Shown here: positions 11,222-46,449 of the stretch, piece after piece
Layout: every line of letters begins with the position of its first letter
Position numbering within the stretch: the stretch's first letter is position 1
Notes under the pieces: model-generated
The model's database searches: none
Seen by the model: the letters and a program-made list of their open reading frames with translations, nothing else
What the model was told of the DNA's origin: nothing
Position numbers and translations under genes: made by a program
From: Chloroflexota bacterium
Lineage (GTDB): Bacteria; Chloroflexota; Anaerolineae; Anaerolineales; Villigracilaceae
Direction of reading: 5' to 3'
DNA: 64,000 nucleotides
NCBI GenBank assembly: GCA_016191845.1
Contig: JACPVF010000003.1
Coordinates: forward strand, 1-64,000

Positions 11222-12526
11222 TTATCGAGATTTCAATGCTTTATCATTTTCTACACGCAGGGCAACTTGATCTACTAAAAGTAACGCAAACCACCAGGCG
11301 CTGAGATAGAGTTCGAGACCGACAGACAGGGCATGGCGGGCGGGAGCCATGGCATCTCCATGCCAAGTGATGAAGAGATGCGGAAAAATCGGAAGGACGA
11401 GCAGGATGAAGGCTGCCCAAAGCGGATTATCTCGCCAGGCGCGAGTAAAAATCGCGATCAATGCAGCGAGTGTTACCAAGACCCAAATCCATAGGATGAA
11501 GCGGTCAGGATACAGAATATGCTCGATGAAAGCGGGCAAGGCGGGTTTATAAAACCGTGTAAAGTAAGTATTTACATCGGGGAAGGCCACCAGCGGGCCA
11601 AACTGCTCGAAGGCCTCTGTCCCACTGTGTATCGGGTTGGAAACCAGCCAGCGCATGTAACAGGATTTTCCATGCGAATAGGTCCAGGAGCGGAAGTCGG
11701 CCAAGTTGGGGTCGTTATAAAAGGCGCGTGACTGGCCGTTGGCAAACTCGCCCTCAAGTGCCAATAGTTCCGACGTGACGGGCATATCGCAATGAGATGC
11801 AAAATAATCTACCGCCTGCGGGTTGGGCAGGACGCGGCGTCCCATCACGTTGAGGAAGGGGAAGACCCAGCGCCCACCCAGGTCGGCGTTGACATTGTTG
11901 AGCAGGAAGATACTGACGAAGGCTACGCTGAGAGTCAGCGCACGCAGACCCGTCCAACGGAAGATGACCGCCAGAAAAACAAGTCCCGCCAGCATGAGCA
12001 GCAGATAGGCGTTCGTGTCGCGCGTGAAGGCCAGGAACAGGCCGACGCCGATCAGCGCAATGACGCGCTCGACACGCCAGCCGCGCAGCAGCCAGAGTCC
12101 CGCCGCGAGGAAGAGCACGAACCATGAGACTGAAAGCGACTCGGTCAGCATGGTGAAGTCCCAGCCAGCCAGGGGACGAACCAGACTCAAGGCGAGGATC
12201 AGGCCAAAGGCGAACGGAGCCAGCCAACGGGTCCGCAGGGAAGCAGCTACCGACAGCCCGAGCAGGGTCCAGGCCAGGATGGAGAATCCAAGCTGGAGGG
12301 CGGCGGCGGTCGAGAAATCCTGCTGAGCAATTTTGAGTAATAGTGGAAAAACCAGTGGACGCGAGTCCCCCCAAAATTTCACGTCGAGCGGAGGCTCCTG
12401 CGAGATACGCAGATAGGCCTGGGTGTCGTCCATCACGCGCGGCTTGGCCAGGGCGGGCTGCGCGTACAGGAGACGCGCGGTCACGTAGAGCACAAAGAGC
12501 GCGATGGTGAAGATGCGGCGGATCAT
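11222..12526 (-). CDS. Polytopic membrane protein (GT-C-like)
   Basis: The 434-aa protein has about ten hydrophobic segments. An early outer loop carries acidic and aromatic residues ([10 protein letters not shown]), followed by [11 protein letters not shown], a pattern like the DD...R...P arrangement of GT-C glycosyltransferases that use polyprenyl-phosphate sugars. A specific sugar or acceptor cannot be named. It overlaps the end of dtd by 4 nt and is part of the selW-trpS-dtd transcript unit. Confidence 0.75.
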
Positions 12527-12960
12527 CGTTCGAGCCAGATGGTGACGGGGCCGTTGTTGTGGATCTCGACCCGCATATGCGCGCCGAACTGTCCCGTTTG
12601 GGTGGGAACGCCCTGGGCGCGCAGCAATTCGACGAAGCGTTCAACCAGCGGAGCGGCCACATCGGGCAGGGCCGCATCGGTGAAAGAGGGACGGCGGCCT
12701 TTGCGCGTATCGGCGTAGAGCGTGAATTGCGAGACAACAATGGCCGCACCTTTCACATCCAACACGGAGAGGTTGGTCTTGCCCGCTTCGTCTTCGAAGA
12801 TGCGCAGGTTGGCGATCTTGTCGGCCAGGAAAGCTGCCTGCTCTTCGCCATCGCCGTGACCGATGCCAAGCAAAATCAACAGGCCAGGTCCAATGCTGGA
12901 AATGACCTGGCCTTCGACGGTGACGCTGGCTTTGGAAACTCGTTGGAGGATGGCGCGCAT
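12523..12960 (-). CDS. dtd: D-aminoacyl-tRNA deacylase
   Basis: The 145-aa product starts [15 protein letters not shown] and carries the DTD signatures [17 protein letters not shown] (with the active-site SQxxL) and the C-terminal NNGPVT cross-subunit motif. It hydrolyses D-amino acids wrongly attached to tRNA. ATG 12958-12960 gives the usual N-terminus; an ATG three codons earlier is possible. It follows trpS in the same operon. Confidence 0.96.
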
Positions 12961-12970
12961 AGGAAACACA

Positions 12971-13000: not shown

Positions 13001-13987
13001 TTACGGCAGTTGAATGGCCTCGCGGACCTCTTCCATCGTCTTTTCGGCGATGGCACGGGCACGCTTGGCGCCGTCATCGAGCACGTCCTTGACGTACTGC
13101 GGCTTCGCGTCCAGCTCGGCGCGTTTGGCGCGGAAAGGTTCGAGGCTTTTGTTCATGTTGGCGGCCAGGCGCTTCTTGCAGTCCACACAGCCGAGGGCAG
13201 CGGTGCGGCAGTCGGCGTTGATCTGGGCTACTTCCTCTTCGGCGGAGAAGATCTTGTGCATCGAGAAGACGTTGCACACGTCGGGGTTACCCGGGTCGTT
13301 GCGGCGCAGGCGCTGGGGGTCAGTCACCATCTGCATGACGCGCTTCTGGGTCTCTTCGGGCGTGGAAGCGATCTCGATATGGTTGTTGAGGCTCTTGCCC
13401 ATCTTCTCTTTGCCGTCGAGGCCGAGCACCTTGAGAACTTTGGTGTTCTTCATCTGCGGCTCGACCAGCACCTGTTTACCGTAGCGATAATTGAACGAGC
13501 GCACGATCTCGCGTGCGAACTCGATGTGCGGCGCCTGGTCGATGCCCACGGGCACCAGGTCCGTTTTGTAGAGCACGATGTCGGCGGTCATCAGCACGGG
13601 ATAACCGACCAGCCCGTAGTTGACATTATCGGGCTGCTGGCGCACCTTCTCTTTGAAGGTCGGCAGGTCGGTCAGCTTGCCAAGCGGCGTGACCATCGAA
13701 AGCAGGGTATGAAGCTCCATCACCTGCGGCACGTGCGACTGAATGAACACGATCGACTCCTCGGGGCGGATGCCCGCCGCAAGCCAGTCGAGCGCCATTT
13801 CGTAGGCGTTCTGCCTGAGGTTGATCGTATCCTCCACTGTGGTCAGCGCGTGGATGTCCACGATGCAGTACACGCACTCGTACTCATCCTGCAGGGCGAC
13901 ATAGTTCTGGATGGCGCCCAGATAATTACCGAGATGCTGGCGACCCGTAGGGCGGGCCCCCGAAAAAACACGTCCTTTTTTTGACAT
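13001..13987 (-). CDS. trpS: Tryptophanyl-tRNA synthetase, probably with a [4Fe-4S] cluster
   Basis: The 328-aa class I synthetase has the HIGH-like motif PTGRQHLGNYLGA near the N-terminus and the KMSKS-like motif KMGKS in the C-terminal half. It charges tRNA-Trp. In the anticodon-binding region four cysteines follow the spacing C-x21-C-x6-C-x2-C (VCN...ADCRTAALGCVDC). This matches, within one residue, the C-x22-C-x6-C-x2-C motif that binds a [4Fe-4S] cluster in the Thermotoga maritima enzyme. It lies 30 nt downstream of the selW-like gene. Confidence 0.96.
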   Translation of the reverse strand: MSKKGRVFSGARPTGRQHLGNYLGAIQNYVALQDEYECVYCIVDIHALTTVEDTINLRQNAYEMALDWLAAGIRPEESIVFIQSHVPQVMELHTLLSMVTPLGKLTDLPTFKEKVRQQPDNVNYGLVGYPVLMTADIVLYKTDLVPVGIDQAPHIEFAREIVRSFNYRYGKQVLVEPQMKNTKVLKVLGLDGKEKMGKSLNNHIEIASTPEETQKRVMQMVTDPQRLRRNDPGNPDVCNVFSMHKIFSAEEEVAQINADCRTAALGCVDCKKRLAANMNKSLEPFRAKRAELDAKPQYVKDVLDDGAKRARAIAEKTMEEVREAIQLP

Positions 13988-14017: not shown

Positions 14018-14260
14018 CTACCCTTCGACCATTTTCCGCACCAGACCGAGCACCTCTCCGGGCTCGGCGTGACGTTTCGTCTGCAACTTCGAGTACAACA
14101 ATTGCCCATTGACGGTCACCTCGAAACGGCCCCCTTCCGAAGGCACCAGCACGATCTTCTCGATGCTGTGTTCGTATTCTTTGAGCAACTGATCGGCCAG
14201 GCTCACGGCCCGGCTGGTATAGTGTCAGACCGCGCAGTAAACGATCTCGATGGTCAGCAT
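14018..14260 (-). CDS. SelW/Rdx-family selenoprotein, Sec encoded by in-frame TGA
   Basis: Reading from ATG 14258-14260 gives MLTIEIVYCAV, then TGA at codon 12 (14225-14227), then HYTSRAVSLADQ and on to 14018. With TGA as selenocysteine the 80-aa product has the Rdx/SelW redox motif CxxU (Cys9-Sec12) and the conserved segments LVPSEGGRFEVTVNG and a C-terminal EPGEVLGLVRKMV. Homology continues on both sides of the TGA, so this is not a chance stop. A hairpin 11-29 nt after the TGA fits a bacterial SECIS element. A standard caller would report only a 62-aa fragment from the GTG at 14206. AAGGA lies upstream of the ATG. It heads the trpS-dtd operon. Confidence 0.85.
14196..14214 (-). promoter_or_regulatory. 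Putative bacterial SECIS hairpin
   Basis: GCCGGGC and GCCTGGC pair over 7 bp (one G-U) around the loop CGTGA, starting 11 nt after the TGA. The apical loop lies 18-22 nt downstream and has G in its second position, as described for bacterial SECIS elements that recruit SelB. Confidence 0.65.
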
Positions 14261-14279
14261 GGGTGAATTTTCCTTTTTC

Positions 14280-14372
14280 ATGTCATGGCGAGGAGGAGCA
14301 CAGCGACGACAAAGCAATCTCCCCTGAATTGGAGATTGCTTCGGGCAAAAAACATCGCCCTCGCAATGACAT
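14280..14372. repeat. Dispersed palindromic repeat, family 1 copy A
   Basis: The outer arms ATGTCAT...CCTCGCAATGACAT and inner arms AAGCAATCTC / GAGATTGCTT form a nested inverted repeat. The same element recurs at 30029-30122, 44414-44499 and, in short form, 60578-60618. Confidence 0.85.
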
Positions 14373-14413
14373 CATAAAATTGTTAGAAAATTATAACATG
14401 CCGCTCCGCAGAC

Positions 14414-14442: not shown

Positions 14443-14479
14443 GCGCAACGTTGTATTCGTACAGAAGGAGAAAGTCAGT

Positions 14480-14737
14480 ATGCCAGTTTATACCTACCGC
14501 TGTGAGAATTGTGGCGTCCAGTTCGAGCGCCAGCAGTCCTTTCAGGATGCCCCGCTCAAGACCTGCCCTGAATGCCGCAAGAAGGCGCTCAAGAAGGTGA
14601 TCACCCCCACTAAGATCATCTTCAAGGGTTCGGGCTTCTATGCCAACGACCACAAATCACCCTCGGGAAGTGTTTCGCGCAGCAGCAAGAGCGAGAGCAA
14701 GAAGGAAACTCCTTCCACAAGCGACTCGGCGGAATAG
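14480..14737 (+). CDS. FmdB-type zinc ribbon protein
   Basis: The 85-aa protein begins MPVYTYRCENCGVQFERQQS, followed by TCPECRKKALKK, which gives the two CxxC knuckles of the FmdB/CxxC_CXXC_SSSS zinc ribbon family. The Ser/Lys-rich tail (SRSSKSESKKE) is typical of this family. Its role is unclear, often assumed regulatory. AAGGAG at 14465-14470 supports this start over upstream in-frame ATGs. Confidence 0.92.
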   Translation: MPVYTYRCENCGVQFERQQSFQDAPLKTCPECRKKALKKVITPTKIIFKGSGFYANDHKSPSGSVSRSSKSESKKETPSTSDSAE

Positions 14738-14754
14738 TCACAACCGTCAAAAGG

Positions 14755-14787
14755 ACACCGCAGGTTTTCAGCCTGCGGTGTTTTTTA
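14755..14787. terminator. Terminator after the FmdB-like gene
   Basis: ACACCGCAGG and CCTGCGGTGT form a 10-bp stem with a 7-nt loop, followed by TTTTT. It touches the end of the convergent minus-strand gene. Confidence 0.9.
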
Positions 14788-16386
14788 TTGCGGATCGGGG
14801 AAGTCCTCATAACCGCGAATCAGGTCATTGTAATAGCCCAGGTTGAAGCGGATGATCTCCGCCAGGCGCCCGGGCGCCAGCAAATCTCCGTGGATGAGGA
14901 GGGTCAGTTTCTCATAATACAGATTCAAATAGGGGTTGGCGATAAAGTTATTCTTGAATCCGCCGGCAATGGTCTCACGGTAGCCGATGGGCATGGGACG
15001 CTCGTAATGCCCTACGCGGGAAGGACCAAGGACAGGCAGGTGCGCGCGCAACGGGTCAGATAGGGCATAGTCGTCGATAATGTAGATCTTCGGGCCCACA
15101 TAATAGCCGAAAAAACCGATCTGGTTGTACTCGATAGGAGAGAGGCCCGCGACCCGTGCCTGTTTTCCATCTCCCACGGTGCCGTAGTAGGATTTGTACT
15201 TGAAGTAATTGGTCCAGCCTGTGGCGCCAAAGTAGTAGTATTTTTCGTTGGCGATGCCGTATTGATCGTTGGGCGGGCCCGGCTGACCTTCACTCATCAA
15301 CACAGGCGGACGCTCTGCTGTCAGCCCAAGAAGGAGGAGCAAAATCAGGCTGAGATAATACACCCTGGGCGGGACCTGGCTGAAGGTCCGCTCGATGTCA
15401 AAGGTCAGCAGGAGGGTGAGACCCATCAGGAAGATAGCCGAGAAGAAACGGCCCGACATGAAGTCCCCACCGATCCATAAGATGTAAAGCGCATATAGGG
15501 CAATGCCTATTGCAACGGACAGCCGCTTCGCGTTTCCCTGAAAACCAACCGTGATCAGGCCCAGCAGGACAGCCCCAAGCGTAAACGGGTCCCAGCGAAT
15601 GGAATTTGCGAAGTAGGCCACACCTTGTTTGAGCAGGTAATAAGTGTCGAGGCCCGTACGCGCTTTGGCATAGTAGGTATTAGGGAAAGGAAATCCATAA
15701 TAAAAGAGGGCAAAGAGTTCCCACAGAATCAAAGGCAGCAGGCCGGCCAGTGTCACGCCCAGAGCCCTGCGCCATTCATCACGACAAAGCCAGAATTGCC
15801 AGACCAGCCCGGGCAGGAGGAGCAGCATAACGTCGAAACGAGTCAGCGCGCCCAAAGCCGTCAGCAAAGAAAGATGCAGAAGTTTTCGGAAAGGACGCTC
15901 GTCTTCACGGAACAGGACGATGAGGTACAGAACCAACAACAGGTGCGTAAGCGGATTCTCCAACCCTGAGGACGAATAATCGATGAAGGCCATCGAACCG
16001 CCCAGCGCAATGGCAGTCAATACAATGGCACGCGGACGGACGGCAAACCGTTGGAGGAAGAGAGATATCGCGCCCAGTGAAATCAAGAAAGACGGGATGT
16101 AGAGCACATAATACGGGTCATGAATAAAGCGTGCAAACGGAACCAACAAAAACAGCCACAACGGATGGGTGAAGACCTGCACACGCTCCCCCACATTCCA
16201 CACCAGGCCATAGCCGTGCAGGAAGTTATCCACCACGCGCATGGTGATGAACGAGTCGTCCGAGATCCACAGGTTGCGGACCAGGATGGAACCCAACGCG
16301 AGCATCGCCATGATGAGAAAAAAACGCGGCGGATTCTCGATACGCATGTTCAATTGGATCGGCTGGCGAACAGTCTCTCGCGACAT
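14785..16386 (-). CDS. Polytopic GT-C-like membrane protein (AftB-like layout)
   Basis: The 533-aa protein has about ten membrane helices and an outer C-terminal domain. Near residue 40 it carries ISDDSFITMRVVDNFLHGYG and then GERVQVFTHPLW. This DD...R...G.GLVWN.GE.V..FTHPLW pattern recalls the AftB-like arabinofuranosyltransferase group and related bacterial GT-C enzymes. I infer a lipid-linked-sugar glycosyltransferase of the cell envelope. GGAGG lies shortly before the ATG. It stands alone between the FmdB-like gene and the divergent gene at 16516. Confidence 0.8.
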   Translation of the reverse strand: MSRETVRQPIQLNMRIENPPRFFLIMAMLALGSILVRNLWISDDSFITMRVVDNFLHGYGLVWNVGERVQVFTHPLWLFLLVPFARFIHDPYYVLYIPSFLISLGAISLFLQRFAVRPRAIVLTAIALGGSMAFIDYSSSGLENPLTHLLLVLYLIVLFREDERPFRKLLHLSLLTALGALTRFDVMLLLLPGLVWQFWLCRDEWRRALGVTLAGLLPLILWELFALFYYGFPFPNTYYAKARTGLDTYYLLKQGVAYFANSIRWDPFTLGAVLLGLITVGFQGNAKRLSVAIGIALYALYILWIGGDFMSGRFFSAIFLMGLTLLLTFDIERTFSQVPPRVYYLSLILLLLLGLTAERPPVLMSEGQPGPPNDQYGIANEKYYYFGATGWTNYFKYKSYYGTVGDGKQARVAGLSPIEYNQIGFFGYYVGPKIYIIDDYALSDPLRAHLPVLGPSRVGHYERPMPIGYRETIAGGFKNNFIANPYLNLYYEKLTLLIHGDLLAPGRLAEIIRFNLGYYNDLIRGYEDFPDPQ

Positions 16387-46307: not shown

Positions 46308-46338
46308 AAAAAAACCATCCTCCAGGCGGAGGATGGTT
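46308..46338 (-). terminator. Terminator of the TPP riboswitch
   Basis: On the minus strand AACCATCCTCC / GGAGGATGGTT (loop 4 nt) with a T7 tail, 16 nt after the aptamer. It is the expression platform. Confidence 0.9.
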
Positions 46339-46353
46339 GACGAGTCAAGAGAG

Positions 46354-46438
46354 TCCCTCCGCTGGTATGATCCAGATCAGGTGATGCGGGTCGAGCGTGG
46401 TACGCTCCTCTCAGCCTGTAACACAGGCTCCCCGTTCG
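46354..46438 (-). promoter_or_regulatory. TPP riboswitch (THI element)
   Basis: The minus strand contains the conserved aptamer parts in order: GGGGAGCC, GGCTGAGAGG, GACCC, ACCTGATCTGGATCATACCA and GCGGAGGGA. It precedes the thiN-thiB-thiP-thiQ operon and is followed by an intrinsic terminator, so TPP should end transcription. Confidence 0.95.
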
Positions 46439-46449
46439 ATTGTGGCGTG

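Follow-up and report, generated by a model that had tools for sequence, protein, structure and literature searches.

The selW-like gene and its product

The window, by which we mean the whole stretch of 64,000 nucleotides analysed here, carries on its minus strand a short gene with one in-frame TGA codon and a hairpin immediately behind it:

14260..14018, minus strand: selW-like gene, 80 codons plus a TAG stop, one in-frame TGA, Rdx/SelW product with a CAVU motif
14260-14258, minus strand: ATG start codon of the selW-like gene
14227-14225, minus strand: TGA codon 12, the proposed selenocysteine (Sec) codon, TGA in 98/102 aligned loci
14214-14196, minus strand: SECIS-like hairpin, 7-bp stem with one G-U pair, loop CGTGA, apex at +20
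14018 (last base), minus strand: TAG stop of the selW-like gene

The read-through protein starts with MLTIEIVYCAVU and has its CxxU motif, C9-A-V-U12, near the N terminus; the ATG at 14260 and the CxxU motif with TGA at codon 12 were thus found on the minus-strand reading as the first-pass annotation had given them. The protein matched the Pfam family Rdx (PF10262) at 75.7 bits (cut-off 22.6, E 3.4e-21) over residues 3-76, that is, across the TGA, and TIGR02174 (SelT/SelW/SelH) at 61.8 bits (cut-off 34.2). With the narrower NF041051 (Campylobacter) model it reached 79.3 bits, under the cut-off of 88. The AlphaFold2 model was confident (pLDDT 92.9) and shows a thioredoxin-like fold. In a Foldseek comparison the SelW-related bacterial structures 2fa8, 2obk, 2p0g and 3dex matched this model with a TM to query of ~0.9 (0.92 for both 2obk and 2p0g), and mouse SelW (2npb) with 0.81.

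As anticipated for normal gene calling, the mechanical listing of open reading frames yields a 62-aa fragment only, from the GTG at 14206 to 14018. Calling by machine therefore loses the active site, and the same is to be expected for relatives that share the TGA. That listing is also what speaks for splitting the locus into an 11-codon leader, which ends at the TGA, and an independent 62-aa protein that starts from GTG 14206. However, the 62-aa product would miss the first strand of the fold together with the CxxU motif, and codons 1-11 lie inside the Rdx match and are strongly constrained (pN/pS 0.12). On these grounds we rejected a separate 62-aa gene, to which we assign hardly any probability.

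Some other features of the window were recorded:

14282-14370: dispersed repeat upstream of the selW-like gene, starting GTCATTGCGAGG
~14479-14740, plus strand: divergent small gene, starting MPVYTYRCENCGVQFERQQSFQ, with CxxC pairs
14785-16386, minus strand: 533-aa open reading frame, arabinofuranosyltransferase model at 67.7 bits, below the cut-off of 1050
46337-46444, minus strand: TPP riboswitch (Rfam, 70 bits)

The repeat GTCATTGCGAGG has 8 matches in the window when up to 3 mismatches are allowed, where 1.03 would be expected. A search for inverted repeats in 14240-14400 found none. The small divergent gene presumably encodes an FmdB-type zinc ribbon.

Conservation of the TGA codon

Among 102 aligned loci, which include the window's own and in some cases hold the same gene from two collections, the codon-12 site is TGA in 98 and TGT or TGC in 4, the latter having been picked for the absence of a stop at the site. 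These four cysteine (Cys) loci come from genomes G146, G326 (two copies) and G252. In G146 and G326, both at least 95% complete, the protein is present with a Cys codon at the site and there is no selA match, while G252 has a selA match and carries its Cys copy beside a TGA copy. The wider phylum contributed 45 further loci with 37 TGA and 8 TGC/TGT, all eight Cys loci being chosen from rows without a stop, and many rows of the wider listing have no stop at the site. Both codon forms thus occur across the phylum, and Sec, which predominates near the window, is not the rule phylum-wide.

In all 12 Cys-type loci read (4 + 8) the Cys codon stands at the TGA position, which is what the alignment with Rdx homologues suggested in the first-pass annotation was to look for. 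Homologues run on past the TGA as a conserved protein instead of ending at it, as they might if that annotation were wrong. Coding continuity was also borne out before and after the TGA, pN/pS in 22 genes of the window's family being 0.12 for codons 1-11 and 0.35 for codons 13-78.

These data bear on the view that the locus is a pseudogene or contains a sequencing error, with a Cys codon turned into TGA by mutation or miscall. TGC and TGT are indeed one base away from TGA, and Cys homologues exist. Yet the same TGA recurs at nearly all aligned loci and in many genomes, the frame behind it is intact and under protein constraint, and the Sec machinery is present in the genome (see below), so that we rejected this view as extremely improbable.

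At L074:3001-3333, a SelW copy carries behind its TGA an in-frame internal duplication of ~30 codons, which may be either genuine or produced by the assembly; a normal copy, L058, comes from the same record set, JACRMH01 (isolate NC_groundwater_1902). Sequence similar to the repeat at 14282-14370 is found upstream of the gene in L074 as well.

Selenocysteine machinery

The window's genome, which is 99.17% complete, was searched as a whole by family for tRNA-Sec, selA, selB, selD, formate dehydrogenase and SelW. The tRNA-Sec scored 70.4 bits (ARAGORN anticodon tca), selB 326 bits, selA 532 bits and selD 348 bits. The search for selA, selB, selC and selD proposed earlier hence found all of them, each above its curated cut-off, and the absence of selB/selC that would have counted against a selenoprotein did not occur, selB and tRNA-Sec both being present. 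The formate dehydrogenase search gave one match above cut-off without an internal stop, and so no second Sec enzyme from that search. The selD match is itself interrupted by one in-frame TGA. Behind it, in selD (L018, G000:C11:231350-232282), we noticed a 7-bp hairpin with the loop GUU starting at +34; selD is likely a second selenoprotein gene, with a UGA-to-loop distance different from that of the selW-like gene.

A SelW-like protein was present in 178/396 genomes of the class. Counting weak matches (threshold E 0.001), selA was matched in 169/178 genomes with the protein versus 170/218 without it (Fisher p 1.1e-6, relatedness ignored). The nine protein-bearing genomes without a selA match comprised 2 with Cys, 5 with a TGA copy (G132, G318, G328, G335 and G369, 55-90% complete) and 2 with the codon not listed (G188, 84% complete, and G205, 77%).

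The SECIS-like hairpin

The hairpin of the window is composed as follows:

14214-14208, minus strand: 5' stem GCCGGGC
14207-14203, minus strand: hairpin loop CGTGA
14202-14196, minus strand: 3' stem GCCTGGC

Its stem begins at the 11th base past the TGA and its loop at the 18th, in agreement with the 7-bp hairpin with loop CGTGA, starting 11 nt after the TGA, of the first-pass annotation. Bacterial SECIS rules require a loop of 3-9 nt, an upper stem of 4-16 bp, 16-37 nt from UGA to loop, a G within the first two loop positions and an energy of at most -7.5 kcal/mol (PMC13188914, section 5). The window hairpin complies with a 5-nt loop CGUGA, 7 bp, 17 nt from UGA to loop and -13.2 kcal/mol. Taken alone it is only moderately unusual (z -1.8 versus synonymous recodings), and a random synonymous encoding of the family peptides passes the rules as well in 25% of cases (1902/7560). 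The firmness therefore comes from comparative evidence and not from the single fold, and folding energy by itself was not accepted as proof of a SECIS element. An Rfam search of the region returned no SECIS family at the gathering threshold and one unrelated match (E 2.2) at a lax one.

Several comparisons point to a constraint at this position. Over 93 TGA genes the mean folding z was -0.92 in the SECIS window versus -0.37, 0.06 and -0.08 in three windows further downstream; three Cys genes had 0.92, 0.88 and -1.03 in the SECIS window. In 22 genes pS falls to 0.158 at codons 17-21, under the hairpin, versus 0.666 at codons 27-78, and in 22/22 genes Ala18 is GCC and Val19 is GTG, two residues for which codon choice varies in the rest of the gene. 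For the register of the window (apex +20, from here: type A) 89.6% of cells pair among 51 sequences, with the outermost pair failing in 30/51. The type A covariation score was 0.233 versus a shuffled mean of 0.159 and was reached by 0/500 shuffles, in a test that relatedness of the sequences can inflate; every slid control scored lower. Three of the seven type A pairs change on both sides, a number that 108/500 shuffles also reached.

A reading of the UGA as another residue, for instance tryptophan through near-cognate or suppressor decoding, would be compatible with the sequence-level basis of the Sec assignment. Against it, the codon occupies the position of the redox Cys of the CxxC/CxxU motif, where the 12 Cys-type loci have Cys, the hairpin past the TGA is conserved and covarying, and the sel genes are present. 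We rejected such decoding for these reasons and regard it as very improbable.

We thus consider it almost certain that the gene encodes a Sec-containing selenoprotein W-like protein of the Rdx family. The first-pass reading of a SelW/Rdx selenoprotein hidden by an in-frame TGA is supported by the machinery, the conserved TGA and the constraint; we infer Sec insertion itself from the sequence. In the proposed mechanism, SelA and SelD would make Sec on tRNA-Sec, and SelB would bind the hairpin, at a UGA-to-loop distance of 17 bases, and deliver Sec to the UGA of codon 12. The product would be thioredoxin-like, with C-x-x-U as its active site, and would presumably act in thiol/selenol redox reactions.

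Two hairpin registers across the family

Collapsing sequences identical over the TGA plus 57 nt left 127 distinct TGA genes. The apex of the lowest-energy hairpin lies at +20 in 52 of them, at +24 in 63 and at scattered positions in 12. Direct energy evaluation in these two registers assigns 52 genes to type A (+20, the register of the window) and 73 to type B (+24) and leaves 2 unclear. The latter two, L097 and L162, do not figure in alignments A2 and A3 or in the trees, and L074, with its internal duplication, was excluded from A2, from the trees and from the synonymous-encoding test (n 126). Underlying both registers is the peptide A-V-S-L-A, typically encoded as GCC GUG AGC CUG in type A and as GCC GUC AGU UUG GCG G in type B. 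In the type B covariation alignment (A3, 71/73 genes, two having been dropped as identical over 42 nt), 6/7 pairs change on both sides and the covariation score was 0.330 versus 0.180.

In a scan of 168 registers, with clades set by family codes and not by the hairpin, apex +20 collected most pairs in f1 (the family of the window, 22 genes) and f48 (5 genes), and apex +24 in 39 other genes of the class; by z, the best register of f1 had the same apex, +20, with a 3-base loop. By class assignment f1 is type A in 22/22 genes, f48 in 5/5 and f77 in 4/4, and the 39 other genes of the class comprise 38 of type B and 1 unclear. Families f69 (1 A, 2 B) and f96 (1 A, 1 B) are mixed.

A tree built without the hairpin residues (135 rows, 73 columns, 72/132 inner branches open) requires at least 9 register switches. 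A thinned tree of 22 type A and 73 type B rows requires at least 7. Of the type A rows with a locus number up to L074 it retained one in four, together with every type A row outside that range; type B was taken in full, and the Cys rows were excluded. On this thinned set a single type A clade was rejected (p-AU 0.0019). Gene transfer between lineages may be the source of some switches.

Among the random synonymous encodings that pass the SECIS rules, +20 (17.7%) and +24 (22.5%) are already the commonest positions. Rule passing rises from the 25% of random encodings given above to 87% in real genes (109/126), with 43 of the 109 at +20 and 57 at +24; these position and passing shares are descriptive, related genes being non-independent samples. 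The remaining 17/126 TGA genes fail the rules as coded in the analysis. Since random encodings favour +20 and +24 and real genes concentrate there, the peptide offers two easy signals, one or other of which is retained in real genes. We lean towards the following interpretation: R-A-V-S-L-A can be encoded for a SECIS element at two alternative positions with a 4-nt offset, and Chloroflexota lineages switched between them several times while the protein was kept, so that SelB and the ribosome would accept both and the amino acid sequence may be shaped by both signals. The two-register hairpin goes beyond what the first-pass annotation had observed. Comprising 127 distinct TGA genes with hairpins in two registers, the family constitutes a natural experiment on SECIS movement and on the strictness of SelB regarding the distance from the UGA.

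Gene neighbourhood

Downstream of the selW-like gene, two genes on the same strand were assigned from profile matches:

13001..13987, minus strand: trpS, tryptophan--tRNA ligase, the next gene downstream
12523..12969, minus strand: dtd, D-aminoacyl-tRNA deacylase, downstream of trpS

At 62 loci, many with only ~1.5 kb of flank, the downstream neighbours include trpS in 54/62, dtd in 48/62 and both in 45/62. One of the trpS matches (L072) is just 36% identical, and the 8 loci without trpS include L079 and L081 (record titles Planctomycetota and Mariniblastus). Judged from this arrangement, the selW-like gene, trpS and dtd likely share an operon, and one might speculate that the thiol redox state is linked to tRNA charging. 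The recurrent trpS and dtd neighbourhood gives a clue to what SelW does in bacteria.

Comparison with known selenoprotein W-like systems

The gene is of the SelW-like kind that is already known and was overlooked by ordinary gene calling. Bacterial SelW-like selenoproteins are described in passages of PMC1088965 and PMC1794560, the former calling their role unclear in 2005. A section of PMC5029168 lists 35 of them, and bacterial SelW-like proteins (SELENOW-like, PF10262, CxxU) are among those predicted with high confidence in a part of PMC13188914. SelW genes overlooked by annotation are mentioned for epsilonproteobacteria in a passage of PMC4607533, and for Chloroflexi a passage of PMC1794560 counts 3 selenoproteins with the families unnamed there. 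Our searches of open-licence papers, judged by titles and abstract openings, turned up none that deals with SelW in this lineage or with the two registers.

Mouse SelW depends on a eukaryotic SECIS element, located outside the coding frame. In predicted fold, the window protein is like mouse SelW 2npb (TM 0.81) and the bacterial structures 2fa8, 2obk, 2p0g and 3dex (~0.9), whereas sequence identity in the Foldseek rows is only 23-33%. It shares with the bacterial SelW-like selenoproteins the family, the CxxU motif and Sec at the second position. Unlike those described, the window gene belongs to the Anaerolineales and has a conserved trpS and dtd neighbourhood, and its wider family has the hairpin in one of two registers. 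The window hairpin resembles the bSECIS consensus (PMC13188914) in being short, in lying right past the UGA and in its CGUGA loop with G second and then U, but the family of the gene departs from that consensus in that its hairpin sits at one of two discrete positions, separated by 4 nt.
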